DNA from: Minisyncoccota bacterium
GTDB taxonomy: Bacteria; Patescibacteriota; Minisyncoccia; Phycocordibacterales; UBA1006
Assembly (NCBI GenBank): GCA_021209525.1
Contig: JAJOIF010000011.1
Location: 1-32,257, forward strand
DNA length: 32,257 nucleotides
Direction of reading: 5' to 3'
Below the pieces are notes generated by a model. That model was not told the origin of the DNA. It saw only the letters and a program-made list of their open reading frames with translations, and did not search any database. The translations under genes were made by a program, and so were the position numbers. This document shows positions 8,503 to 28,530 of the stretch, piece by piece. Every line of letters begins with the position of its first letter. The stretch's first letter is position 1.

Positions 8503-8934
8503 ATGAAAAATAAAAAAAGTCATGCCCTCATTGCGCAATCCTTATTATATGATTTGCCGACCGAGATGTCGCGAATCATGTTTTGTCCATCATGTGCAGC
8601 ACGCCGCGCACCTCTCAAGGGTGATCGTGTGCTCCTCTATCATGCTGATGAAAAACAGCATTATATACATTCTATCAAGAAAGATCATAGATATTTTGGC
8701 TTTACGCCACATTTGATTACTGATATTGTCAAAGAACATTTTGTGAATGGTTGCATTATTAGTTTTTCTGCCGTATGTTGTATTGAGAACTGCGGTGTTA
8801 TTTTTACCAAGACAGAGAAAGACCCGTTTCAGTATCATTGGCACAAAATACATCAAAAGCAGTGTTATATGAATCCCTATCGATTTATATCATTTGCAAG
8901 TATCAAATTTTATGATTTGTATGTGTATATCTAA
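8503..8934 (+). CDS. Hypothetical protein with CxxC and CCxxxxC motifs, 143 aa
   Basis: Not recognised. Residues 28-31 are CPSC, followed by a basic stretch (AARRAP), and CCIENC lies near residues 92-97. Four or five cysteines in two groups suggest a small zinc-binding fold, which is inference. The protein is rich in His, Tyr and Phe and has no membrane segment. It ends 16 nt before a bidirectional terminator shared with the gene on the opposite strand. A TACTAT about 30 nt upstream could be its -10. It is a real gene by length and bracketing, with function unknown. Confidence 0.6.
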   Translation: MKNKKSHALIAQSLLYDLPTEMSRIMFCPSCAARRAPLKGDRVLLYHADEKQHYIHSIKKDHRYFGFTPHLITDIVKEHFVNGCIISFSAVCCIENCGVIFTKTEKDPFQYHWHKIHQKQCYMNPYRFISFASIKFYDLYVYI

Positions 8935-10284: not shown

Positions 10285-10317
10285 TAAAAAATCTCACCCG
10301 TGCGGTGATTTTTTTAT
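10285..10317. terminator. Imperfect bidirectional terminator
   Basis: TCACC/GGTGA with a small bulge, flanked by A and T runs, lies between the converging META-domain and photolyase genes. Confidence 0.65.
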
Positions 10318-11816
10318 TGTGCAGATGCATCTCTAAGGCGTCTATGAAAATCACGCACTGTCGCATGGTAGTACGCAATCTCTTGGGGTGTTTTTTTAGA
10401 TAATTGAGCAATAATAAAAGGCATGCGTGCTTGAGTTTTAAAGAATGCAGCACGCTTGTTAATAAATGACCAGTAGAGACTGTCCCACACCGCTTCCCAT
10501 GGTCCGCGAGGATAATCACCCATTTTGCGTATATAGTTTGATCCGCTCATATAGGGCTTGGTGGCAAAAACACCACCACTTGCAAATTGACTCATGTCAT
10601 AGACATTAGGAACCATGACCCAGTCATAACTATCAATAAACATTTCCATAAACCAACGATAGACATTGTGCGGGGCATATTCTCCAAGGAGAAATATATT
10701 ACCGAGTACCATGAGTCTTTCAATATGATGCGCGTATCCTGTGCGTATTATTTTGGTAAGGGTAAAGTCAACAGGAGTGAGATGAGTATTTCCTTTCCAA
10801 AATGCCTGAGGTAATGGTCGTCTGTGTGTGAAAAAATTTTGAGAACGCATATGAGTTCCATGCGAGACATACATGCCGCGCATAAATTCTCGCCAGCCTA
10901 TAATTTGCCTCACCAGGCCTTCATACGAAGAAAGGGGAATGGTATGGTCATGTGCATACGTCATAATATGCTCAAGTACTGTCTGCGGAGTAATGAGTCC
11001 AATATTGAGATAGGGCGTCATAACACTGTGGAATAATGTGTCGTGTGTATGTGACAAGGCGTCTTCATAGGTTCCAAAGAGCGAAAATCGTTCCTGCAGA
11101 AACATATGCAGAGACGCGAGTGCCTCCGCTTCGGTAATAGGATAGAGAAGATCTGCAGTGTCACCGTAATGGTGATCAAAATATTGTGCAACATATGCCT
11201 TGGCTTCATTGCGATATATGTCTTGATGATTGAGCCATGGCGTACGGGGGAGAGAGATGCCTTTTTTTGGTAAGGGTTTTCTGTTTTCGTGATCGAAACT
11301 CCATTGACCACCTGCGGGTTTTCCTTCGGCATCAATCAAAATACCTAATCGCTTGCGTTGCCATATATAAAATGAATGCATGCGTAATTGCTTGCCTTTT
11401 TGTGTATCGTGCCACGCATGCCATGTGTCTAATGGTGTCAGAAAAAGTGGGCTTTCGTGGATAATAATATGCGCATCAAGTTTTTCAATATCTTGACTGA
11501 GCCATGTATCAGTCGGATCAACAATATGAATAGTGTCTTGGTTTGTGTGGTGAATATGTGCAAGCCAATCACCTCTTTTCTTGAGTTCATATGCCGAGAT
11601 ATAGGTTGCTGCATATCCTTGAGCAATGAGTTGGTCATAGTATGCACGCATACTTGCACGATGGAGCATAATTTTTTGTTTATGAAATTGATATTGTGAA
11701 AAAAAGAGGTATTCTTCAATGAGATATATATGATCGAGTGATATGTCAGAGCGCATAATTGGGTGCTCCGAAAAAGGAAAGAGTTGGTGAGGGAAGATAA
11801 TACCAATTGATTGCAT
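10314..11816 (-). CDS. Cryptochrome/photolyase family protein (FeS-BCP/CryPro type) without any cysteine
   Basis: Bacterial photolyase-related protein of the group that contains Agrobacterium PhrB, a (6-4) photolyase with FAD and a 4Fe-4S cluster. The N-terminal Rossmann domain (about 1-130) begins IGIIFPHQLF. The FAD/helical domain carries GGQWSFDHENRKPLP (169-183), YEGLVRQIIGWREFMRG (298-314), PNVYDMSQFASGG (403-415), and ATKPYMSGSNYIRKM (418-432). At 500 residues it is full length. All four cluster cysteines are missing: the segment near 343-352 reads NTHLTPVDFT, and 433-449 reads GDYPRGPWEAVWDSLYW where CxxC and CP are expected. The whole protein has no cysteine. It probably repairs UV lesions with FAD; cluster loss is visible, activity is inferred. 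Confidence 0.9.
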   Translation of the reverse strand: MQSIGIIFPHQLFPFSEHPIMRSDISLDHIYLIEEYLFFSQYQFHKQKIMLHRASMRAYYDQLIAQGYAATYISAYELKKRGDWLAHIHHTNQDTIHIVDPTDTWLSQDIEKLDAHIIIHESPLFLTPLDTWHAWHDTQKGKQLRMHSFYIWQRKRLGILIDAEGKPAGGQWSFDHENRKPLPKKGISLPRTPWLNHQDIYRNEAKAYVAQYFDHHYGDTADLLYPITEAEALASLHMFLQERFSLFGTYEDALSHTHDTLFHSVMTPYLNIGLITPQTVLEHIMTYAHDHTIPLSSYEGLVRQIIGWREFMRGMYVSHGTHMRSQNFFTHRRPLPQAFWKGNTHLTPVDFTLTKIIRTGYAHHIERLMVLGNIFLLGEYAPHNVYRWFMEMFIDSYDWVMVPNVYDMSQFASGGVFATKPYMSGSNYIRKMGDYPRGPWEAVWDSLYWSFINKRAAFFKTQARMPFIIAQLSKKTPQEIAYYHATVRDFHRRLRDASAQ

Positions 11817-11822
11817 GTATAT

Positions 11823-11831
11823 AGTATAGCA
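11823..11831 (-). promoter_or_regulatory. Extended -10 promoter of the photolyase gene
   Basis: Minus-strand TGC TATACT ends 6 nt before the ATG at 11816, predicting a leaderless message. Confidence 0.6.
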
Positions 11832-11850
11832 TAGGGTGAGAAATCTCAGG

Positions 11851-11940
11851 TATCAAGCACCAAGCAACAAGTAGCAAGTACCAAATAACAAAACCTATCA
11901 GCCCTGTCTGGCGTAATTTGACGAGAGTGCTTGGGATTTT
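11851..11940. repeat. Palindromic CCAA-type intergenic repeat, copy 2
   Basis: The left arm is CAAGCACCAAGC followed by CAAGTA/ACCAAATAACAAA words. The right arm has GTGCTTGG at 11927-11934, the reverse complement of the left arm words CAAGCAC and CCAAGC. It fills the gap between the divergent photolyase and flavin reductase promoters and ends about 10 nt before the latter. Confidence 0.55.
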
Positions 11941-11949
11941 TTGCTCTTA

Positions 11950-11958
11950 TGCTATACT
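11950..11958 (+). promoter_or_regulatory. Extended -10 promoter of the flavin reductase-like gene
   Basis: TGC TATACT ends 8 nt before the ATG at 11967. An upstream ATG at 11931 would precede the promoter and is rejected. Confidence 0.65.
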
Positions 11959-11966
11959 CAATCTCT

Positions 11967-12449
11967 ATGAGAAAAATATGGAATCATGCGCCGTATCCTG
12001 TATGGAGTCTCGTCACACGAGACGAAAAAGGTGACGCTCATATGAATATATGCACCTATGTCACTCCTATATCTATGCACCCCAAAGAATTCATCATAGG
12101 TGTATATTATGGAACTGCAACATATGATCATGTTGTGCGCGACCGTCGTGCATGCTTGCAATTACTGAGCAAAGACCAGATCGCATATGTACCATTGCTC
12201 GGCAAAAAGAGTGCAAAAAAACATCCTCGCAAAATGCAAAACAAGAAAATAACAGAACATACTCATATGTATAATTCTTGGACAGTACTTGAAGGATGTA
12301 TTGGATATATTGACCTTGAAATATATGATATACAGGACACAACCGCAGATCATGCTATTGCATATGCGCGTGTTATACATGCTCGTACTGTGAGCAATGA
12401 TCCTGTGCTTACCCTTGTGGATCTTTATGACGCAGGTGTGATTGGATAG
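11967..12449 (+). CDS. Flavin reductase-like FMN-binding split-barrel protein
   Basis: A 160-residue protein with the layout of the flavin reductase-like family (COG1853). It has PVWSLVT at the first strand, then NICTYVTPISMHPKEFIIGV, in which the NxxTYVTPxS segment binds FMN phosphate in relatives. This is followed by the T-Y-D-H-V and LLSKDQ segments. Such proteins reduce free flavin with NAD(P)H or use bound FMN. It is divergent from the photolyase, which needs reduced FAD, so it could supply reduced flavin or electrons (inference). Its 3' end overlaps the convergent DUF2256 gene by 25 bp. Confidence 0.82.
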   Translation: MRKIWNHAPYPVWSLVTRDEKGDAHMNICTYVTPISMHPKEFIIGVYYGTATYDHVVRDRRACLQLLSKDQIAYVPLLGKKSAKKHPRKMQNKKITEHTHMYNSWTVLEGCIGYIDLEIYDIQDTTADHAIAYARVIHARTVSNDPVLTLVDLYDAGVIG

Positions 12450-12580
12450 CGTCCTTTTCTACACGCTTCTCCGCAATACATAATACGATCCCACATATTG
12501 CGACTTGCCCATTTTTTTCTATTATGAAATGGTCTTTTGCAATGTAGGCATATTTTCTCTTCTCTGTATTTTTTCGTCAT
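12425..12580 (-). CDS. DUF2256-family small zinc-ribbon protein, 51 aa
   Basis: A 51-residue protein encoded opposite the gap between the flavin reductase and DUF1361 genes. It shows C11-x2-C14 followed by KRPF, then a basic RKKWA, W30-D31 and YCGEACR with C36-x3-C40. This is the DUF2256 pattern (CxxC, RxF, KKW, WDxVxYC, xxCR). Four cysteines predict one zinc site. The stop overlaps the flavin reductase 3' end by 25 bp. TATACT on the minus strand ends 10 nt before the ATG. DUF2256 genes are, as I recall, often found near photolyase/cryptochrome genes, which fits this locus; that association should be checked. Function is unknown. Confidence 0.8.
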   Translation of the reverse strand: MTKKYREEKICLHCKRPFHNRKKWASRNMWDRIMYCGEACRKGRYPITPAS

Positions 12581-12590
12581 ACTCTATGAT

Positions 12591-12598
12591 AGTATACG
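12591..12598. promoter_or_regulatory. Overlapping divergent promoters for DUF2256 (-) and DUF1361 (+)
   Basis: The palindrome GTATAC sits in AGTATACG. The minus strand reads TATACT (10 nt before the DUF2256 ATG) and the plus strand TATACG (5 nt before the DUF1361 ATG). TATGAT at 12585-12590 is an alternative plus-strand -10. Only one polymerase could use the shared element at a time. Confidence 0.5.
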
Positions 12599-12603
12599 TA
12601 TAT

Positions 12604-13308
12604 ATGAAATTTTTTTCAGCAAGACATGCGCACCCTTTTGTGTTTTTGTGGATATGCTATGCGTTCGTATTTACCGTACTTGCCCTATTGCCGAGAGAGC
12701 AGTCTGGATTCTGGATTGCTATGCTTTGGAATCTATTTTTGGTGGCGGTGCCACTTGCCTTGGCTTTGGGAATGCTCGCTGTGCATATACTCTCTATACG
12801 CGTGATATTGTGGCTCTTGGCGCTGGTGACTCTTCCTAATGCATGGTATGTTCTCACTGATGTGCGTCATCTCATTTGGCTTCATCCAAAACCAGACGGC
12901 GCTGTTACTATTGTGCGATATGAATGGGATATGCTTGCAGGAGGTAATGTATGGATGAGTGAATTACTGCTTTTTCTCTTGGCGGCGCTCGGTATTGCCG
13001 CGGGTGCATATGCTGGGTACATCCTTGCCCGGGAACTCGCCAGTCATATGAAGAGGCTCACATATCATTGGAATTTTTTGATAAGTGTAGTGACTATTGC
13101 ATATATGAGTGGATTCGCTATTTATATAGGGCGATATATTCGCCTTAATTCATGGGATGTCATAACGAGACCTCATATTGTTGCTGCTGAGATTTTTCAT
13201 GCACACACTGATCCGTATATGTTGTTCGTAACATTGCTCTATGGATCTATTGCTTTGGTGAGTATCTATACTGTCCAATATATTGCGCAGTCTGTAGGGT
13301 CTAGGTAA
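12604..13308 (+). CDS. DUF1361 integral membrane protein
   Basis: A 234-residue protein with about six membrane helices. Family marks are LWNLFLVAVPLALA (near 46-59), LPNAWYVLTDVRHL (near 78-91) and a YIGRYIRLNSWDVITRP motif (near 179-195); these match DUF1361 proteins, which have no established function. The start at ATG 12604 is chosen because the longer frame from 12505 would run through both promoter elements and is antisense to DUF2256. The following gene (13357) has its own promoter. The NSWD and TDxRHL motifs suggest a conserved polar site at the membrane, role unknown. Confidence 0.85.
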   Translation: MKFFSARHAHPFVFLWICYAFVFTVLALLPREQSGFWIAMLWNLFLVAVPLALALGMLAVHILSIRVILWLLALVTLPNAWYVLTDVRHLIWLHPKPDGAVTIVRYEWDMLAGGNVWMSELLLFLLAALGIAAGAYAGYILARELASHMKRLTYHWNFLISVVTIAYMSGFAIYIGRYIRLNSWDVITRPHIVAAEIFHAHTDPYMLFVTLLYGSIALVSIYTVQYIAQSVGSR

Positions 13309-13343
13309 GTATGTGGTATACTTATATGTATTACTCATTTATA

Positions 13344-13349
13344 TATACA
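13344..13349 (+). promoter_or_regulatory. -10 element of the 67-residue gene
   Basis: TATACA ends 7 nt before the ATG at 13357. A second, better TGG TATACT (13314-13322) ends 34 nt before it, so the gene may have a leadered and a leaderless start. Confidence 0.45.
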
Positions 13350-13356
13350 TATCATT

Positions 13357-13560
13357 ATGTCACACAATCATACCTACAATCTCATGAATCAACTTACCCA
13401 AGAAATGAAAAGTCTCTGGCGTATAGAAAAACACTATATTCCCGAAGCGCAGACAGATCAAGAACGAGAACTCTTTGAAGATATGGCTCGCGTCAAAAAG
13501 GCGCATATCGAAGCGCTCGAGCAATTGGTTGCACAAACCCTTGGGGGAGGACACAATTAA
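13357..13560 (+). CDS. Small helical hypothetical protein, 67 aa
   Basis: Not recognised by name. The 67 residues form two predicted amphipathic helices: about 8-27 with WRIEKHY, and about 34-60 with DMARVKKAHIEALEQL. They are joined by a short Pro-containing turn. The acidic/basic pattern resembles short helical-hairpin proteins common in Parcubacteria. There are no cysteines or membrane segments. It has its own -10 element and a strong terminator 17 nt after the stop, so it is a monocistronic unit. Confidence 0.65.
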   Translation: MSHNHTYNLMNQLTQEMKSLWRIEKHYIPEAQTDQERELFEDMARVKKAHIEALEQLVAQTLGGGHN

Positions 13561-13576
13561 AATACTATACATACAC

Positions 13577-13611
13577 AAAACTCACCGCAATGGTGAGTTT
13601 TGTTTTTTCAA
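13577..13611 (+). terminator. Intrinsic terminator after the 67-residue gene
   Basis: AAAACTCACC pairs perfectly with GGTGAGTTTT around a 5-nt loop, followed by a T-rich run. Confidence 0.88.
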
Positions 13612-13616
13612 GGGGT

Positions 13617-13756
13617 TATGTTCAATACTCATCAGGCGCTCTTTATTATTTAAATAAAATAATAACTTGTTCTCGGTAGTATGAACATGATACTTCGCCA
13701 CACGAGAACATCGCCTTAAGCAAGAGTAGTACCCCGGGCAGAGCCCGGGGTGCTAC
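13617..13756 (+). repeat. Structured intergenic repeat, copy A (longest form)
   Basis: Three pairings are visible. ATGTTCAATACT (13618-13629) pairs with AGTATGAACAT (13678-13688) with one bulged base. TGTTCTCG (13668-13675) pairs with CGAGAACA (13703-13710). A 14-bp hairpin spans 13726-13756 with ACCCCGGGC, loop AGA and GCCCGGGGT as its core. The second pairing starts inside the loop of the first, so the two form a pseudoknot or exclude each other. The left part aligns with 15611-15705 and the right part with 10229-10284 (minus strand). Confidence 0.7.
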
Positions 13757-13769
13757 ATTTCTAGAGAGA

Positions 13770-14831
13770 TTATTCTGCAGTAGGTTTTTCAATGAGCAGA
13801 GGATCAATATCGAGACTTTCTCCGGTAATACGCAAGACATCTTTGTCTACTTTTTTGAGTTCTTTGTAGGCATGATTGTAATGATTCACTGTTGTGCCGA
13901 GTGTGCTACCGAGTTTTTGCATATAGGTTTCATATGCTTGTAAGTGATTACCGAGCTCTGCGACACGTTTTTGAATTTCTTTTGCTGATTCTTCGATTTG
14001 CAATGAGCGGAGTCCTTGGAGGACTGTTTGCAAGAATGCGAGGAATGAAGTAGGGGAGACAATGAGTACTTTTTTCTTGAATGCATATTCAATGAGATCT
14101 GCGGTATTAATCTTCATACCACCAATTTCTGCAACCAAGAGATCGTAATAAATGGCTTCGTGAGGAATGAACATGAATGCAAAATCCATAGTGCCATGTT
14201 CTGGTTGAATATATTTGCTCGTTTCGTCAATGCGTTTCTTGAGATCATTTTTAAATGCGCGCTCCAAGGTGAGGCGATCGCTCTCATTGGTAGTATCAGC
14301 AATGCGTGTATAATTTTCAAGAGAGAACTTTGAGTCAATAGGAATAATTTTATCTTTGACAAATACTACAGCATCGACAATGTCTTCTTTGGTAAGTGTA
14401 TATTGCATTTGATACGATCCAGGAGGGAGCACATTTTTGAGTGTTGTTTCTAAATAGTATTCTCCTAAAATACCGCGCTGTTTTGGGTTTTTGAGCATAT
14501 TTTGCAAGTCTTGCAATTGCTCAGTAAAACTCATAACCTGCTCGCCTGTTTTCTTGACCTCAGTAATTTCTCGAGTAATTTCTTTGATGAGTTCATGAGA
14601 TCGTTCTGATTGATATTTGAGCGAATTACTCATTTCTCGTTGTGTGTCACCGAGTTTTTCATCAACAGCGCGAGATAGTGCATTCATTTGATGAAGCAAG
14701 AGCGCGAGTGATTGATCGTCTTGTTTTTGTACAGGTGCGTCTATTTTTTTCTGGAGGCGCATCACGAGAGTAATGAGCACACTAATGAGGAGAATACTAA
14801 TAATGATAATGATGATAAAAAAAGTTTCCAT
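13770..14831 (-). CDS. rmuC: DNA recombination protein RmuC
   Basis: RmuC family proteins limit recombination at inverted repeats and have a restriction-endonuclease-like core. This 353-residue member has an N-terminal membrane helix (about 4-24) and a coiled coil (about 25-110). The core domain carries NPKQRGILGEYYLE, VVFVKDKIIPIDSKFSLENY and MFIPHEAIYYDLL. The DSK pair fits the D/ExK nuclease motif. The start ATG at 14831 lies 12 nt after the stop of the exonuclease gene, so the two form an operon. Loss of strand-end processing at inverted repeats could matter here because palindromic repeats flank the gene. Confidence 0.93.
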   Translation of the reverse strand: METFFIIIIIISILLISVLITLVMRLQKKIDAPVQKQDDQSLALLLHQMNALSRAVDEKLGDTQREMSNSLKYQSERSHELIKEITREITEVKKTGEQVMSFTEQLQDLQNMLKNPKQRGILGEYYLETTLKNVLPPGSYQMQYTLTKEDIVDAVVFVKDKIIPIDSKFSLENYTRIADTTNESDRLTLERAFKNDLKKRIDETSKYIQPEHGTMDFAFMFIPHEAIYYDLLVAEIGGMKINTADLIEYAFKKKVLIVSPTSFLAFLQTVLQGLRSLQIEESAKEIQKRVAELGNHLQAYETYMQKLGSTLGTTVNHYNHAYKELKKVDKDVLRITGESLDIDPLLIEKPTAE

Positions 14832-14843
14832 AAGAGTAGATGA

Positions 14844-15584
14844 TTATGATGTCTGGTGTATACCCAGCGCTTGTTCTAATGTATAAATCCAATTTTCGTC
14901 ACGCACCTCTTCTTGTAATTTGGTGCGCAAGAGCCATTCCAAATATCCACGATCGCTCTGGAGCACATCTGTGATGCTCGTATTTTTGTATTTACCAAAA
15001 GGAAAGAATTTATAAACGAGAGGTGTTTCGCTAATATGGAGCATCTGCTCAATAGCAGTATCTTGAGAAAGGTTTTCTTGCTCCATGATTTTTTTCAAGA
15101 AGCGATAAAACAATTGTTCGAGCACGAGCACATCGCCTTTTGCATCATGAGCGACAGCATCAACTTCAATACCGAGCAAGTAGCGCAAAAATTGTAATTT
15201 GTACGAAGATACGCGTCCTTCGGGGTCGAGGTAATGTGCTATTTTCAGAGTATCAATCATGCGAGACACATGTAATCCTTCTCGTTTCAGCATCTCAGCA
15301 TCAAAAGGTGCATTATGGGCAATCATAATGGCGCCTTCCTGAAAACGCTTTTCAAGATCATGGAATTCTTTGCTACCTTGAAAAGGAGGTTTACCCTCGG
15401 TCATTTTAGGGGTAATGTGATGCACAGACATTGCTTCTATGGTAATAGGTACGGGCGCTGTATAGAGCTCGTCTACAAAAGGCGAGTCATCATTACTCGT
15501 ATAGGCTACTTGAATGAGGCGGTCCTCAGGTCCATTTCCAGTTGTTTCTGTGTCAAGAAAAATGAGTTGATGTGATATGTCCAT
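14844..15584 (-). CDS. DnaQ-fold 3'-5' exonuclease (DEDDh)
   Basis: A 246-residue protein. The exonuclease domain has all DEDDh residues: D11 and E13 in LDTETTG, D95 in AHNAPFDAEML, and H146/D151 in VAHDAKGDVLVLE. The C-terminal part (about 190-222) has FPFGKYKNTSITDVL and YLEWLL, a motif found after exonuclease domains in ExoX-like proteins. It could act in proofreading, repair or RNA trimming. The start at 15584 is chosen since TGC TATACT ends 8 nt upstream; the longer frame to 15707 would translate a repeat and the promoter. It is the first gene of an operon with rmuC. Confidence 0.88.
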   Translation of the reverse strand: MDISHQLIFLDTETTGNGPEDRLIQVAYTSNDDSPFVDELYTAPVPITIEAMSVHHITPKMTEGKPPFQGSKEFHDLEKRFQEGAIMIAHNAPFDAEMLKREGLHVSRMIDTLKIAHYLDPEGRVSSYKLQFLRYLLGIEVDAVAHDAKGDVLVLEQLFYRFLKKIMEQENLSQDTAIEQMLHISETPLVYKFFPFGKYKNTSITDVLQSDRGYLEWLLRTKLQEEVRDENWIYTLEQALGIHQTS

Positions 15585-15592
15585 ACGATAAC

Positions 15593-15601
15593 AGTATAGC
15601 A
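15593..15601 (-). promoter_or_regulatory. Extended -10 promoter of the exonuclease-rmuC operon
   Basis: Minus-strand TGC TATACT ends 8 nt before the ATG at 15584. Confidence 0.65.
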
Positions 15602-15610
15602 TACTTTTAT

Positions 15611-15705
15611 TCTCAATACTCCGACGATATGCGTTGGTTAAATAATAATGACTTGTTCGGAGTATTGTGAACATATAACTCACCGCATGAAAACTTGACG
15701 CAAAC
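15611..15705 (+). repeat. Structured intergenic repeat, copy B
   Basis: An 11-bp perfect inverted repeat CAATACTCCGA (15614-15624) and TCGGAGTATTG (15657-15667) encloses a loop containing TAAATAATAATGACTTGTTC. It aligns with the left part of copy A, which has TCAATACTC at the start, TAAATAA and ACTTGTTC in the loop, then AGTAT and GAACAT. The right, GC-rich part is absent. Confidence 0.65.
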
Positions 15706-15802
15706 ATTCATAGAATAATTCCTATTATTTGGTGAATATATCTTACTTTGAGTAAGGATTATGCTTCGATGCTCTGCCTCGAGAGTTTTTATTTGGGTGT
15801 GG

Positions 15803-15811
15803 TAGTATATA
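15803..15811 (+). promoter_or_regulatory. Candidate -10 of the MutY-like gene
   Basis: TAGTATATA precedes the ATG at 15815. TAGTAT would leave 6 nt to the ATG and TATATA 3 nt. Weaker than the TATACT elements elsewhere. Confidence 0.4.
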
Positions 15812-15814
15812 TAC

Positions 15815-16672
15815 ATGAAAAAAAGCACATTCCAAAAAATCATCTGGGATTATTATATACGCCATGGGCGTCATGATTTGCCGTGGCGTACCCATATTAC
15901 GCCATATCGTATTCTTGTTTCAGAGATTATGCTCCAACAAACTCAAGTAGATCGCGTTATTCCATTTTTCAAAAAATGGATGCGCTCATTTCCATCACTC
16001 AAAAAATTGAGTCAGGCGAGTCAGCGCGATGTCCTCGCTCATTGGAAGGGGCTCGGATATAATAGCCGCGCATTGCGTCTGCAGAAACTTGCCCAGATTA
16101 TTATGGATGCTCACGGAGGTAACATACCAATGAGCACAGTAGCGCTTGAGGCATTACCAGGTATTGGTCCTTATACAGCGAGCGCTGTGCGTATCTTTGT
16201 GCGTGGCGAGCCGGATATATGCATTGAAACAAATATTCGCAGAATTTTCTTGCATCATTTTTTTACCGATCAAGAAAATGTACATGATCGTGATATTTAC
16301 ACATTGATCGAAAAAACATTTCCTGTAAATCTACCAGACCATCCTTTCTTTGCTGATCATACTATTCCTCATGTTGCTACGCATTGGTATTGGGCGCTCA
16401 TGGACTATGGGTCTCACTTGCCCAAGAGAATTGGCAAGAATAGTAATACGCAGAGTAAACATTACACACAGCAAAAGAAATTCAAAGGCAGCGATAGGGA
16501 AATACGGGGCAAGATACTCGCTCTATTGCTTGAACATCAGACACTATCGCGCACCCGTCTCTATACCATGCTCGGTACAGAAAAAGACCGCTACGCCCGT
16601 ATTCTAGATGATATGAAGCGCGAGGGATTTATTACCATGACAGGACGGAGGGTGTTTTTGGTGGATAGGTAG
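15815..16672 (+). CDS. MutY-like A/G-specific adenine glycosylase lacking the Fe-S cluster
   Basis: HhH-GPD superfamily DNA glycosylase. Family marks are LPWRTHITPYRILVSEIMLQ with catalytic E37, the GLGYNSRA turn, and the HhH motif LPGIGPYTASAV. The catalytic Asp (D138 in E. coli MutY) is replaced by E138 within IETNIRR at the same position number. The C-x6-C-x2-C-x5-C cluster loop is absent, replaced by GSHLPKRIGKNSNTQ and a basic stretch; the protein has a single cysteine (C136). The C-terminal NUDIX-like 8-oxoG domain is replaced by about 55 residues resembling a winged helix. It may act in A:oxoG repair, but substrate range must be regarded as open. Confidence 0.85.
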   Translation: MKKSTFQKIIWDYYIRHGRHDLPWRTHITPYRILVSEIMLQQTQVDRVIPFFKKWMRSFPSLKKLSQASQRDVLAHWKGLGYNSRALRLQKLAQIIMDAHGGNIPMSTVALEALPGIGPYTASAVRIFVRGEPDICIETNIRRIFLHHFFTDQENVHDRDIYTLIEKTFPVNLPDHPFFADHTIPHVATHWYWALMDYGSHLPKRIGKNSNTQSKHYTQQKKFKGSDREIRGKILALLLEHQTLSRTRLYTMLGTEKDRYARILDDMKREGFITMTGRRVFLVDR

Positions 16673-16692
16673 ACACTCCTCGCACATTCATA

Positions 16693-16698
16693 TATACT
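16693..16698 (+). promoter_or_regulatory. -10 element of the 540-residue gene
   Basis: TATACT ends 8 nt before the ATG at 16707; no TG extension. Confidence 0.55.
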
Positions 16699-16706
16699 AA
16701 CCATAT

Positions 16707-18329
16707 ATGGAAAATCCTAAATTTCTCAAACAAAAGTACGGTAATCTCCACAAAAGCCCTGAAGTACAAAGTGCTGCAGAGCGTACAGAAAAAAGAACAG
16801 GTGAGTCAGTATCAGAAAACCCCGAAGTACGTATACAAAACTACCTCAATCGCTTCAATGAAATACTCAATCGTACTGACAAAGAAGACCGACAACAAGG
16901 TATTGAAGCCCTTAAAAAAGTTCTCACTAAAGAACTTGTCATCAAAGCAGAAAATGTACCCTATCGTGCATTTGAATTAGAACAAGACATTGCGGAACAA
17001 TGGGGACGTGGACGACCAGCTATTACTGAAAAATTCAAACAAGAAAAAATCAAGCAAATTCAAGAAGACCAAAAAGAATCACTCCATACATGGATTGACT
17101 ACCTTACGTCACCTGATGCCATGTATCCTGACTGGGCAAAGTACTGGGCATTTCGATCAATGGCTCAAATGGGAGGATACTCCAAGAAAGACAAGAAATT
17201 TGGTACAAGAAAAAAAGACACTGTACATGCCTTCCCGACACTCAATGCTGGATGTCTTGCTGATACTATAGGGCACATACAACAACATGTAGAGATAGCA
17301 GGCCTATCAGAAGATGACCCACAACGCATTGATAAAGAACATGCTCTCATGGAGGAGTTAGGTCACAATGAAGAAACACGCACTCTCCTTACCACAGAAA
17401 ACTTTGCAAAGATATATACTCACTATCTTGAGCAATTCGGTGGTCTCACGTGGGAGAACCTAGAAAACATCAAAGGATATTGGAAGAAATATGAACATAA
17501 ATCAGATCCACAAGAACTCGTTGATTCACTCAAAGGATATCCTCTTGAATGGTGCACCCGCAATATCTCAACAGCACGAACACACTTAGAAGGTGGTGAC
17601 TTTTATGTATATTATTCACAAAACAATGACGGCGAAGCAGTAGTGCCACGCCTTGCTATGCGTATGCGAGGTACCAATACTATTGCCGAAGTGCGCGGTA
17701 TTGAAAAAGACCAAAACATCGATCAATACATTCAACCAGTACTCGATGAAAAACTCAGTGAATTTGGGTCAGAAGGTGAGCGTTATCTTAAAAAATCAGA
17801 AGATATGAAACGCATGACTGACATCACCCAAAGATACAGAACTGGGCAAGCACTCACTTCTGATGATCTACGATTTCTCTATGAGATAGATGGTAATATA
17901 CAAGGCTTTGGATACAAAGCAGATCCACGTATTAAAGAAATACTTGATGGTAGAAATATGAAAGAAGACCTTGGCGTCCTCTTTAATTGTAGGCCAGATC
18001 AAATTGCTATTACACAAGAGGAGGCCCTCAGTGGTGATTGTGTGTATTACAGAGGAGATCTTGACTTAAGCAATCTCACCAGCGCAGAAGGCCTCACTTT
18101 ACCACAATCTATTGGAGGGTATCTTTACTTAAGCAATCTCACCAGCGCAGAAGGCCTCACCTTACCACAATCTATTGGTGGGTATCTTGAATTAAGAGGT
18201 CTCACCAGCGCAGAAGGCCTCACCTTGCCACAAAGTATTGAAGGAGGTCTTTTCTTAAACGGTCTCACCAGCGCAGACAAAGAAATGCTTCGTCAAAAAT
18301 ATCCTCAGTATGTGGATAAGATAAAGTAA
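16707..18329 (+). CDS. Lineage-specific protein with C-terminal beta-solenoid-like tandem repeats, 540 aa
   Basis: No named family is certain. The charged helical N-terminus (1-130) is followed by a region with YPDWAKYWAFRSM, and later by TVHAFPTLN. A globular part (about 275-370) carries EWCTRN, GGDFYVYYSQNNDGE, PRLAMRMRG and AEVRGIEKDQN. I recognise this combination from large Patescibacteria proteins of unknown function. Residues 450-535 are four tandem copies of a 21-residue unit (one 22) with L-T-S-A-E-G-L-T-L-P-Q-S-I-G-G, a pattern expected to form a short solenoid. It has no signal peptide. There are four tandem DNA copies at the end, and no clear terminator follows. Confidence 0.7.
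   Translation: MENPKFLKQKYGNLHKSPEVQSAAERTEKRTGESVSENPEVRIQNYLNRFNEILNRTDKEDRQQGIEALKKVLTKELVIKAENVPYRAFELEQDIAEQWGRGRPAITEKFKQEKIKQIQEDQKESLHTWIDYLTSPDAMYPDWAKYWAFRSMAQMGGYSKKDKKFGTRKKDTVHAFPTLNAGCLADTIGHIQQHVEIAGLSEDDPQRIDKEHALMEELGHNEETRTLLTTENFAKIYTHYLEQFGGLTWENLENIKGYWKKYEHKSDPQELVDSLKGYPLEWCTRNISTARTHLEGGDFYVYYSQNNDGEAVVPRLAMRMRGTNTIAEVRGIEKDQNIDQYIQPVLDEKLSEFGSEGERYLKKSEDMKRMTDITQRYRTGQALTSDDLRFLYEIDGNIQGFGYKADPRIKEILDGRNMKEDLGVLFNCRPDQIAITQEEALSGDCVYYRGDLDLSNLTSAEGLTLPQSIGGYLYLSNLTSAEGLTLPQSIGGYLELRGLTSAEGLTLPQSIEGGLFLNGLTSADKEMLRQKYPQYVDKIK
18062..18280 (+). repeat. Coding tandem repeat, 63-bp period
   Basis: CTCACCAGCGCAG occurs four times. The first three copies are spaced 63 bp, and the fourth has a 3-bp insertion. 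Copies one and two differ at only a few positions, which points to recent duplication by slippage or unequal exchange. Each copy encodes one 21-residue repeat. Confidence 0.9.
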
Positions 18330-18377
18330 AAAGACACATATTTAAATGCTCACCTCAGTGCTTTTTATATCTCTATT

Positions 18378-18386
18378 TGATATACT
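18378..18386 (+). promoter_or_regulatory. Extended -10 promoter of the helicase-nuclease gene
   Basis: TGA TATACT ends 7 nt before the ATG at 18394. Confidence 0.62.
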
Positions 18387-18393
18387 TTGACAT

Positions 18394-21300
18394 ATGTCTC
18401 TATCAAACGAAGAAAAATTCCAAAATGCCTATACCGGACTCAATCCTGAACAGCGAGACGCTGTTGACAGTATCGAAGGTCCAGTGATGGTGGTCGCAGG
18501 CCCAGGAACAGGCAAGACGCAAATTCTCGCACTTCGTATTGCTAACATTGTGCGGACTACAGATACAACACCAGACAGTATTCTCGCACTCACATTTACA
18601 GAATCAGCAGTGGTGAATATGCGCAAGCGCTTGCTCGGACTCATGGGGCCTGATGCGTATCGCGTAGGTATTTTCACTTTTCATGGCTTTGCTCAAAAAA
18701 TCATCCAAGATAATCCCGATGCATTTCCTGCAATCATTGGTTCAGAGCCTATGCTTGATGTTGATGCCGTGCGTATCATAGAAGATATTCTTATCACGCA
18801 TGATTTTGAATACTTGTCTCCTTTTGGGGATCCGCTCTTGTATGTCGGAGATATACGAGCGCGCATTGATAACCTTAAACGCGAAGGTGTTTCTGTGCAA
18901 GATTTTCAAGCAATTATTGATCAAGAACAACATGACCTTGATACATGTGATGACCTCTATCATGAAAAAGGGGCGTACAAAGGGCGCATCAAAAATAAAT
19001 ATGTTGATCTACAAAAACAAATCACCAAAAATCAAGAGCTCTGCACCATATATGGCGCATATCAAGACATGCTCCACGCAGAAAAGAAATATGATTTTGC
19101 TGATATGATTATGGAAGTAGTGCGCGCATGTGCGACCAATCAAGAACTCCTCTTTGGTATTCAAGAACAATATCACTATGTTCTCGTTGATGAACATCAA
19201 GATAGTAATAATGGGCAGAATAAATTACTTGAACTCTTGGTGAATTTTCATGATATGCCAAATATTTTTGTGGTGGGGGATGAAAAGCAGTCAATTTTTC
19301 GCTTTCAAGGCGCTTCGCTTGAAAATTTTTTCTATTTCAAATATCTCTATCCTCAAGCAAAGCTCATTACCTTGCGTACGAATTATCGCTCGTCACAGCT
19401 CATTTTAGATTCTGCCGAATCTATTATTCCAAGCAGTAAAAACTTACAAGCACATCATGCATATGATGCACACAAAATACGCATTATGCCATTTCAGGAA
19501 ACCAATGCCGAAGTATTTGGTGTTATTGAAAGTATTCGTAAACATATACGAGATGGGGTGCCTCCAGAAAAAATAGCTATTATTTATCGCAAGAACTCAG
19601 ATGCATTTGCATTTGCTGATATGTGCGCAAAATTGGGTGTTCCATGCATTATTGAATCAGATCAAGATTTATTTTCAGATATCTTGATTCGCAAACTCAT
19701 CACTTATATGTACGCAGCTGCGTATCCTGAAAATGATCGATATATGGGCGAAGCGCTCCATGTGGACTTTTTAGGATTGGATCCTTTTGATATTTTTCAA
19801 ATAATCCGCACAGCGGGTACTCGTCATGAAGCGTATGGGGTACTCACTATATACGACATACTGCATCGCTCTGATATTCTTGATACACTTTCTCTGAAAA
19901 ACAAGGATGCGTGTATGCGGGCAGGTGCAGCACTTGCTGATCTCCATGAGTATGGATACAATGATCGTATTACACGCACACTCGAGCATGCGCTCCGGGC
20001 TTCGGGGATGCTCGCTGCAATTATGGCAAGTGACGAGCCTGTGCGTGGTCTCGATACAGTAGATCGATTTTTTGATGAAGTGCGCACCCTTGAAGCAAAG
20101 AAAAATGATGCGACACTCCGTGATCTCATTGCTCATATTGAAATGATTCGCAAGCACAAGATTTTCTTGAAAAAGAAAAAACACAAAGGAGAGCAATCTG
20201 CAGTGCGCCTCATGACAGCACACCGATCCAAAGGACTCGAATTTCATTATGTGTATATTGTGCATGCGGTATATGGGGTATGGGGTAATACAAAATCACC
20301 AAACAGATTACCGCTCTTGCCGCGTGTCTATGCACTCATTGACGATGCTTCCAAGAAAGAAATAATGACCGAAACTTTTCCAGATCATGATGAAGAATTG
20401 CGTATTTTTTATGTTGCACTCACGCGTGCTGAATACGGCATCACTATTACCTATGCAGGGCAAGGAGATGACGGCAAAGAGCAACTCCCTTCAGCATATA
20501 TTGATATGATTAGCGATGATCACAAAGAATACATTGACACTACTGACCTAGAAGCACTCTACAAACAAGAGCGACCAACTCTCTATGCGGAAAAACCACA
20601 AGGGGTGTACGGTACGATTACGCCTGCATTTGTACGTGAATTATTTATAGCGCAAGGATTATCAGTGTCGGCGCTTAATAATTACCTCAAGTCTCCATGG
20701 CAGTATTTTTATCGTAACCTCATGAGAATACCGCAAACCAAAACAGCTTCTCTTGATTATGGAAATAGTATGCATGCCGTATTCAAAGATTTTTTTAATC
20801 ATCTCAAAAATGGAGGTGCTCCTTCTACTGATTTTCTCTTTGAGTTAGCGCGTACTCATGTTGCGCGCCTGCAGGCAACTGACCGCGAAAAAGAAATACT
20901 TCTGAAAAAGAGCTTGCGCGCGCTCTCTGAGTGGTACGCATACCATCAAGATGTGTGGCATGTAGACACTATTAACGAAGAACGCATTCGCGGTATCTTC
21001 TTGCGCGACGATGTGATGATCAAAGGAGATATTGATAAAATTGAATTGCATGGAGATGGAACAGTAACGGTTGTTGATTATAAAACAGGCAAGCATAAAA
21101 CACGCAATGAGATCATGGGAAATACCAAAAACAGTGATGGTGATTATTATCGTCAGCTCGTCTTTTACAAGTTGCTCCTTGATAGATATAAAAACGGCAT
21201 GTATCGTATGACCGAAGGGGTTCTGGAATTTGTAGAACCTGACGAAAACGGCAAGATAGAACGCCACACCTTTACTATTTCAGAGCAAGAAACCAGAGAG

Positions 21301-21420
21301 CTTGAAGCTACTATTATTCGTGTTGCTGATGAAATTATGAATCTTTCATTCTGGAATGAGCCATGTGATGATGCAGTGTGTGACTATGGTGATTTGGTAC
21401 AAGCATTGCGAGGATTTTAA
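18394..21420 (+). CDS. UvrD/PcrA-type helicase fused to a PD-(D/E)XK nuclease
   Basis: A 1008-residue SF1A helicase with a nuclease tail, an AddA/AddB- or AdnB-like layout for processing DNA ends. The helicase motifs present are Q motif LNPEQRDAV (16-24), Walker A GPGTGKT (36-42), Walker B DEHQD (266-270), GDEKQSIFRFQGA, TAHRSKGLEF, and VALTRAE (674-680). The nuclease domain has MHAVF, GDIDKIE (D879, D881), VDYKTGK (D895, K897) and a QLVFYKLL helix. In relatives four cysteines hold a 4Fe-4S cluster; here the first is S767 (KSPWQYFY), and only C991 and C996 remain at the C-terminus. The nuclease is probably active but without the normal cluster (inference). It is likely to work as a stand-alone RecBCD-like enzyme. 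Confidence 0.92.
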   Translation: MSLSNEEKFQNAYTGLNPEQRDAVDSIEGPVMVVAGPGTGKTQILALRIANIVRTTDTTPDSILALTFTESAVVNMRKRLLGLMGPDAYRVGIFTFHGFAQKIIQDNPDAFPAIIGSEPMLDVDAVRIIEDILITHDFEYLSPFGDPLLYVGDIRARIDNLKREGVSVQDFQAIIDQEQHDLDTCDDLYHEKGAYKGRIKNKYVDLQKQITKNQELCTIYGAYQDMLHAEKKYDFADMIMEVVRACATNQELLFGIQEQYHYVLVDEHQDSNNGQNKLLELLVNFHDMPNIFVVGDEKQSIFRFQGASLENFFYFKYLYPQAKLITLRTNYRSSQLILDSAESIIPSSKNLQAHHAYDAHKIRIMPFQETNAEVFGVIESIRKHIRDGVPPEKIAIIYRKNSDAFAFADMCAKLGVPCIIESDQDLFSDILIRKLITYMYAAAYPENDRYMGEALHVDFLGLDPFDIFQIIRTAGTRHEAYGVLTIYDILHRSDILDTLSLKNKDACMRAGAALADLHEYGYNDRITRTLEHALRASGMLAAIMASDEPVRGLDTVDRFFDEVRTLEAKKNDATLRDLIAHIEMIRKHKIFLKKKKHKGEQSAVRLMTAHRSKGLEFHYVYIVHAVYGVWGNTKSPNRLPLLPRVYALIDDASKKEIMTETFPDHDEELRIFYVALTRAEYGITITYAGQGDDGKEQLPSAYIDMISDDHKEYIDTTDLEALYKQERPTLYAEKPQGVYGTITPAFVRELFIAQGLSVSALNNYLKSPWQYFYRNLMRIPQTKTASLDYGNSMHAVFKDFFNHLKNGGAPSTDFLFELARTHVARLQATDREKEILLKKSLRALSEWYAYHQDVWHVDTINEERIRGIFLRDDVMIKGDIDKIELHGDGTVTVVDYKTGKHKTRNEIMGNTKNSDGDYYRQLVFYKLLLDRYKNGMYRMTEGVLEFVEPDENGKIERHTFTISEQETRELEATIIRVADEIMNLSFWNEPCDDAVCDYGDLVQALRGF

Positions 21421-27060: not shown

Positions 27061-28530
27061 ATGTCAACAAATTTGATTCCTGTTATCGGTATTGAAGTTC
27101 ACGCAGAACTAAAAACAAACACTAAAATGTTCTCACGAGCTAAAAATGACCCCGATGAATCACGTCCTAATGTGAACATTGATCCGGTGAGTATGGCTCA
27201 TCCGGGGACGCTCCCTGTTATCAATAAAAAAGCCGTAGAACATATGGTGCGTATTGGTCTTGCTGTTAATGGCACTGTTGCAAATTTTACTGAATTTGAT
27301 CGCAAAAATTATTTCTACCCCGACATCCCCAAGGGATACCAAATTTCTCAATATAAACATCCTATTGTGAAAGGGGGATCTCTTGCTGGGGTACTGCTCA
27401 CTCGTGTTCATCTCGAAGAAGACACAGGAACAAGCAAGCACGAAGACGGCGGCTCACTCATTGATTTTAATCGCGCAGGTGTTCCTTTGATGGAGCTTGT
27501 TACAGAGCCGGTTATTCATAGTCCTCAGCAAGCCGCACAATTCGGTCGTGAATTGCAGCTCTTGTTGCAATACCTCGATGCTTCGGATGCACAAATGGAG
27601 AAAGGGGAATTGCGTATTGAAATTAACTTGTCTCTCATGGAAACCGATATGTCTTTGGATGAGGTCAAAGCGCTCTATCATTCTGATCGTGATCGTTATA
27701 TGTCACTCCTTGGCACGAAGACAGAAGTCAAAAATATTAACTCATTCAAGGCTGCAGAAAAAGCAGCTCACTATGAAATTGAGCGTATGTCAGCACTTAT
27801 TCGTGCGGGGCGCGGCGATGAAATTGTCCAAGAAACAAGAGGGTGGGATGACGCGCGTGGTATCACTATCTCGCAACGCTCAAAAGAAAATGCTGCTGAC
27901 TATAGGTATTTCCCAGATCCTGATCTTCCTAAACTCTATCTACATGAACTCTTTGACCTTGAGAGTATGAAGCAAGCATTGCCTGAATTACCAGCATCAA
28001 AACGTGATCGTTATCGCGCCGCTTATGGTATCTCAGAAGAAGCTATTGAAATCTTTGTTAATCACCACGAACTTGCACATGTTTTTGAACAAGTTGCAGA
28101 GGCACTTTCTTCTGCTGATATGTACCATACCGCATCAAATTATGTAACATCTGACCTTATGGGAATACTCAAGGAGGACAAGGGTGCGCGTATCCCAGAC
28201 ATTGCTTCATTTGTAGAACTCATGAAAATGATTGAAGCAAAAGAATTAAATTCTCGTGGCGCAAAAGATATTTTGCGTATCCTTGCAATACAAGGAGGAA
28301 GTCCTCAAGATCTTGCTCAATCACTTGGGCTTATCCAAAATAATGACCCCGAAGCATTGCGCGGATTAGTGACTCAAATCATTACAGATAATCCAAGTGT
28401 CGTTCAAAAATTTAAAGACGGAGATCATAATGTGCTCAAGTTTTTTGTTGGGCAAGTTATGAAAGAAACCAAAGGGAGCGCAAACCCAGAACTTACCGAA
28501 TCATTATTCAAAGAACTATTGAATGCATAG
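27061..28530 (+). CDS. gatB: Asp/Glu-tRNA amidotransferase subunit GatB
   Basis: GatB binds the misacylated tRNA, phosphorylates the acyl group and receives ammonia from GatA. The 489-residue protein starts VIGIEVHAELKTNTKMFSRA and keeps HPGTLPVIN, DRKNYFYPDIPKGYQISQ, and LEEDTGTSKHE of the catalytic domain. These are followed by the helical domain and the C-terminal YqeY-like tail (RGAKDILRIL). The CPVC seen in some GatB proteins reads DPVS, as in GatB forms without the zinc site. pheS starts 6 nt after its stop, so the three genes are one operon. Confidence 0.97.
   Translation: MSTNLIPVIGIEVHAELKTNTKMFSRAKNDPDESRPNVNIDPVSMAHPGTLPVINKKAVEHMVRIGLAVNGTVANFTEFDRKNYFYPDIPKGYQISQYKHPIVKGGSLAGVLLTRVHLEEDTGTSKHEDGGSLIDFNRAGVPLMELVTEPVIHSPQQAAQFGRELQLLLQYLDASDAQMEKGELRIEINLSLMETDMSLDEVKALYHSDRDRYMSLLGTKTEVKNINSFKAAEKAAHYEIERMSALIRAGRGDEIVQETRGWDDARGITISQRSKENAADYRYFPDPDLPKLYLHELFDLESMKQALPELPASKRDRYRAAYGISEEAIEIFVNHHELAHVFEQVAEALSSADMYHTASNYVTSDLMGILKEDKGARIPDIASFVELMKMIEAKELNSRGAKDILRILAIQGGSPQDLAQSLGLIQNNDPEALRGLVTQIITDNPSVVQKFKDGDHNVLKFFVGQVMKETKGSANPELTESLFKELLNA

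Follow-up and report, generated by a model that had tools for sequence, protein, structure and literature searches.

What the [4Fe-4S] cluster does for DNA glycosylases and (6-4) photolyases is a matter of dispute, with structure, DNA binding and redox signalling all under consideration. The question is raised anew by a 32,257-nucleotide stretch of DNA from a Minisyncoccota bacterium (contig JAJOIF010000011.1 of assembly GCA_021209525.1; hereafter the window), which encodes a photolyase, a MutY-like glycosylase and a helicase-nuclease, all short of the cysteines that would hold such a cluster. Did all three enzymes lose the cluster within this lineage, perhaps through missing cluster assembly or a shortage of iron, as the initial annotation proposed, or did the three proteins arrive at this state separately?

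The genome from which the window derives is small (679,573 bases, or 0.68 Mb, in 15 contigs; 98.6% complete), and profile searches of this assembly found no SufB/D (SUFBD), no NifU/IscU-type scaffold (NifU_N) and no radical-SAM domain, bearing out the suspicion that Suf/Isc would be missing. As positive controls, the SUFBD, radical-SAM and NifU_N searches each matched most or all control genomes (14/14 for SufB/D and 12/14 for the IscU/NifU scaffold). ‘Fe-S marker’ is used below for SUFBD, NifU_N or radical SAM, and statements of Fe-S absence stand on these few marker families only. Fe-S cluster assembly is undetectable in the window’s genome, and the cell seems unable to make clusters. The genome does encode a NifS-like cysteine desulfurase (L293; C7:32114-33241) with an SxxSAC site (GIMCSSQSAC), alongside which no scaffold protein was found; this family is present in 27/27 genomes tested, and tRNA thiolation is an established role of such desulfurases. 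Its sole uracil-DNA glycosylase match is a family-1 UNG, which is cluster-free and keeps several cysteines. Four further proteins (L258, L261, L262 and L263) are family-4-like uracil-DNA glycosylases with one or two cysteines only, and thus without the four Fe-S ligands; the genome that encodes L258 has all three markers, SUFBD, NifU_N and radical SAM.

Table 1. Features of the three repair genes in the window (positions refer to the window; residues are numbered within each protein).
Feature	Position	Strand	Details
Clusterless prokaryotic (6-4)-type photolyase (DPRP family)	10314..11816	-	Intact ORF, 500 aa, 0 Cys; Pfam DPRP 9e-52
Y435/P436 junction, 10-residue deletion in photolyase	10509..10514	-	Seen on aligning 11 Fe-S photolyases and 29 further clusterless relatives; shared by the 80 nearest loci (80/80)
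MutY-like HhH-GPD glycosylase, clusterless, with winged-helix-like C-terminal segment	15815..16672	+	Intact ORF, 285 aa; HhH-GPD 3.7e-17, HTH_Crp_2 7e-4
Expected C-x6-C-x2-C-x5-C site, residues 200-213 of the MutY-like protein	16412..16453	+	No Cys; reads ALMDYGSHLPKRIGKNSNTQSKHY
UvrD/REP helicase fused to PD-(D/E)XK nuclease	18394..21420	+	Intact, 1008 aa; UvrD-helicase 1.3e-57, UvrD_C 9.3e-33, PDDEXK_1 7.5e-24
S767; almost every close relative of the helicase-nuclease has Cys here	20692..20694	+	Alignment of 29 class relatives
C991 and C996 kept; G999 is the fourth Cys in relatives (C-x4-C-x2-C)	21364..21390	+	Alignment with relatives

The photolyase is indeed devoid of cysteine, as initially reported, and its reading frame is intact. 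At the cysteine frequency of the window (62 of 9,275 residues, 0.67%) a protein of 500 residues would lack cysteine with a probability of 0.035, and the bare absence is only mildly unusual; the informative part is its position in the alignment. The best solved sequence relatives are the Fe-S (6-4) photolyases 8ijy and PhrB, against which a clean 10-residue gap (NYIRKMGDY-PRGPWEAVWD) removes the C-x2-C part of the PhrB C-x2-C-x12-C stretch, while the first PhrB cluster cysteine pairs with P348 and both PhrB ligand positions remaining outside the deletion are occupied by residues other than cysteine. All four cluster cysteines of the FeS-BCP type (PhrB C350, C438, C441 and C454) are missing, and chance was ruled out as the cause, since this specific deletion runs through the whole branch. 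The active-site motif HHIxRLM is present, with H363-H364 invariant, and an AlphaFold model (24 relatives as input; pLDDT 85, pTM 0.88) aligns by foldseek with the Caulobacter structure 9hnk (TM 0.91) and with PhrB (TM 0.90), so that the (6-4) photolyase fold is predicted to be retained without the cluster.

This state extends far beyond the window. Among GTDB genomes, the 80 nearest relatives (42-47% identity) lack the ligand loop without exception; they belong mostly to Bacteroidota, with others from Verrucomicrobiota, Planctomycetota, Ignavibacteriota and two candidate-phylum MAGs, and photolyases of class relatives, where long enough to judge, lack it as well. Bacteroidota members have 1-8 cysteines each, yet the four ligands are missing, and ligand loss there is therefore specific. 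In a tree of 11 Fe-S and the clusterless sequences, a single branch with 100/100 support divides the two groups; the window’s photolyase forms one clade with the 29 clusterless rows, which have the deletion in common. Because its relatives are clusterless and are joined to the Fe-S photolyases by this one branch, the alignment and tree indicate that the absence of the cluster does not date from the window’s own lineage. Prokaryotic (6-4) photolyases without Fe-S have already been described as ‘subgroup M’, for example PromaPL of Prochlorococcus (PMC9178010, PMC12082625), and the DPRP-type sequence and predicted fold, the HHIxRLM motif, the lack of all four cluster cysteines and the spread over several phyla mark the window’s photolyase as an enzyme of the subgroup-M type. 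It differs from them in having no cysteine at all and in residing in a 0.68-Mb genome without detectable Fe-S machinery. Such an enzyme would work by flavin and light, with no need of a cluster.

The MutY-like protein likewise matches its first description, having a single cysteine (C136, which adjoins the catalytic site and is not a ligand) and no C-x6-C-x2-C-x5-C loop. It scores 162.6 bits against the mutY equivalog TIGR01084, below the cut-off of 286.5, and its best solved match is the clusterless MutY 8uuc_A (7.6e-56), with which it shares an HhH-GPD core without Fe-S loop, an ETN(V/I)R motif and an NPxRRSxHxxxQxxFxGS-type stretch; a literature search on 8UUC found nothing. The canonical SExMLQQTQ is conserved as SEIMLQQTQ, whereas the canonical Asp (LDGNV) is replaced by Glu (IETNI), as in 8uuc and most other clusterless MutY sequences. 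No NUDIX-like 8-oxoG recognition domain was matched by Pfam, the C-terminus showing instead a weak winged-helix match (7e-4), and the protein is predicted to act with this Asp-to-Glu variant of the HhH active site and a winged-helix tail, free of a cluster. Adjoining the gene are RmuC and an ExoX-like 3'-5' exonuclease (13770-15707, minus strand), which together form a small DNA-repair neighbourhood, and a 540-aa protein (16707-18329, plus strand) ends in imperfect repeats of about 20 residues (LTSAEGLTLPQSIGGYL).

As with the photolyase, the clusterless state of the MutY-like protein is no peculiarity of this genome. A 28-row clusterless clade that includes 8uuc separates from Fe-S MutYs with 100/100 support (one clusterless row, G206, falls outside), and a MutY-like protein occurs in 33 class genomes, 30 of which have the clusterless form, with or without Fe-S genes; no association between MutY state and Fe-S markers was seen among class genomes. 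Judged by these alignments, the clusterless form is the norm in the class and not a lineage-specific loss. Clusterless MutYs were known before (Trasvina-Arenas et al. 2016 FEBS J, as cited in PMC11078426); compared with this known kind, the window’s protein is distant in sequence and has the winged-helix-like C-terminus in place of an 8-oxoG-recognition domain. The photolyase and MutY branches are common to phyla with ordinary Fe-S metabolism, and loss within the window’s lineage is contradicted for two of the three proteins, both belonging to clusterless branches (the 80/80 photolyases and the MutY clade with 8uuc) that reach beyond it.

The helicase-nuclease presents a different picture. S767, C991 and C996 are as first annotated, and relatives in the class have a cysteine at 767, upstream of the nuclease, followed downstream by C-x4-C-x2-C or similar (991, 996 and 999). 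Two of four ligand cysteines are gone (C767S and C999G) from a protein that still has 8 cysteines in total, and it would therefore hold no cluster in the usual way. The comparison with AddB/AdnB/Cas4-type Fe-S nucleases made at the outset survives as regards the loss of ligands and the bracketing of the PD-(D/E)XK domain by cysteine positions (767; 991/996/999); the spacing needs correction, this subfamily having C ... C-x4-C-x2-C as against C ... C-x2-C-x5-C in AddB/Cas4. In G110, a genome of the same order, the enzyme is short of the upstream cysteine only, and from these alignments the ligand loss looks more local than in the two enzymes above. Cys 767 and the downstream cysteines are nevertheless kept in nine genomes that have no Fe-S marker at all (G008, G016, G023, G025, G047, G067, G069, G088 and G090); in these, either the sites hold zinc, or absent assembly does not force their loss.

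A fourth repair enzyme, endonuclease III (Nth), is encoded outside the window, and examination of its cysteines, which the initial annotation had suggested, gave the outcome anticipated there. The loop reads GRTYGPARGWNQETD, the protein has one cysteine and no cluster site, and the catalytic Lys (GRKTANV), the Asp (VDTHV) and the HhH are retained in common with endonuclease III. The nth gene is split between contig C11 (L085/L291) and contig C3 (L087/L292), but a 127-base overlap of their ends joins the two parts into one open frame; a truncated gene or pseudogene was thereby ruled out in favour of an assembly gap. This loss, too, looks more local by sequence comparison than those of the photolyase and the MutY-like protein.

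Among 237 genomes sampled from the class, SUFBD was found in 38, radical SAM in 174, NifU_N in 142 and none of the three in 39; the state of the Nth loop was read in 98, comprising 71 with any marker and 27 with none. A four-cysteine loop is present in 41 of the 71 and in 0 of the 27 (Fisher 1.8e-8), and, taking the majority state of each family, in 12/26 versus 0/12 (p = 0.0065). When the trait is defined as ‘SUFBD or NifU_N’, the counts become 39/56 and 2/42 (p = 1.6e-11; family p = 0.0045). Radical SAM alone was rejected as a marker, the five apparent exceptions (Fe-S Nth with neither Suf nor radical SAM) all having NifU_N. The association controls for ancestry coarsely, at family level, and is not phylogenetically secure, since the best Nth tree has 7 changes, few of them on supported branches, and yields only 2 independent pairs on well-supported ones. 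Non-Fe-S Nths are also common where markers exist (30/57), and missing machinery is therefore not the sole driver.

In 34 of these 57 non-Fe-S Nths, from about 20 families, the loop contains a compact Cys/His quartet, its four residues lying inside a stretch of about 11 (for example CPAKPHDHDKC and CPARPHDCREH; carriers include L120, L093, L126 and L158), arranged as CHHC in 19 (counting G074), CHCH in 7, CHCC in 5 and CCHC in 3. Background frequencies of 0.9% Cys and 1.8% His are low, and the quartets are therefore not due to chance. Zinc sites typically show Cys and His replacing one another while the spacing is kept. The pattern suggests that in sister genomes the Fe-S site of Nth, whose place in endonuclease III the quartet occupies, was probably swapped for a zinc site. 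The window genome’s Nth lacks even this quartet. No description of zinc-type or Cys/His-quartet Nths was found in the literature searched.

Taken together, these observations make it likely, in our judgement, that an Fe-S-free end state, in a small genome without detectable cluster supply, was reached by separate routes, through old clusterless branches on the one hand and local losses on the other. The photolyase and the MutY-like glycosylase would come from branches that lost the cluster, or never had it, long ago in other lineages, while the helicase-nuclease and Nth would be members of Fe-S or metal-site families whose ligands were lost more locally. Where no clusters are supplied, a genome would keep, acquire or tolerate only cluster-free versions of an enzyme; packing would stand in for the cluster, taken as a structural element, and in sister Nths the substitute would probably be zinc on the Cys/His quartet. 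Read in the direction of cause that we infer, the lack of Fe-S supply would act by filtering which versions survive, and would not by itself account for all three losses.

The proposal from which we set out, that the window’s lineage itself gave up Fe-S in DNA repair, keeps its force for the helicase-nuclease, short of two of its four ligands relative to its relatives, and for Nth, and fails for the photolyase and the MutY-like protein. Missing assembly as the cause fares similarly: the want of any marker in this genome and of any Fe-S Nth in the 27 marker-free genomes speaks for it, but MutY state does not follow the machinery and nine such genomes keep their nuclease cysteines. As an account of all three enzymes, loss in this lineage through lost assembly or iron shortage is unlikely.

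Still less probable is a general depletion of cysteine, in which the genome sheds Cys and metal sites of any kind, Fe-S sites among them. The low cysteine content of the window, the absence of cysteine from GatB, RmuC and others, and the missing quartet in the window genome’s Nth would fit such a process, which may contribute; but UNG, the NifS-like protein and the product of ORF 8503-8934 still hold several cysteines, and Bacteroidota photolyases lack the four ligands while having cysteines to spare. In GatB (27061-28530, plus strand) metal-site cysteines may be lost as well, the stretch that we take to be the usual CxC ... CPxC zinc site reading MFSRA ... NIDPVSMAHPG. ORF 8503-8934 (plus strand) encodes 143 aa with 7 Cys, including a CPSC, has no Pfam or NCBIfam match and is possibly a small metal-binding protein.

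That clusters come from machinery of another kind or from a host, while something unrelated, for instance stability or exposure to oxygen, led the enzymes to lose theirs, is very improbable, for although some class genomes have radical-SAM genes but neither SUFBD nor NifU_N, and the desulfurase with its SxxSAC site is encoded here, radical SAM too is absent from the window’s genome, no cluster user was found, and tRNA thiolation may, by analogy, account for the desulfurase.

A wider form of the preferred reading, that a whole group of small-genome bacteria abandoned Fe-S, with the Nth loop becoming a Cys/His zinc site in many and metal-free in a few, including the window’s, is one we hold tentatively, as having slightly less than an even chance. 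Within the class, Nth loops form a natural gradation (Fe-S, Cys/His quartet, none) that can be compared with the presence or absence of assembly machinery, and natural enzymes that apparently work cluster-free, in a cell seemingly unable to make clusters, are a direct test of what the cluster is for. Should the wider reading hold, the cluster would be a structural part that these repair enzymes can replace, and an essential role for it in redox signalling would become less likely.
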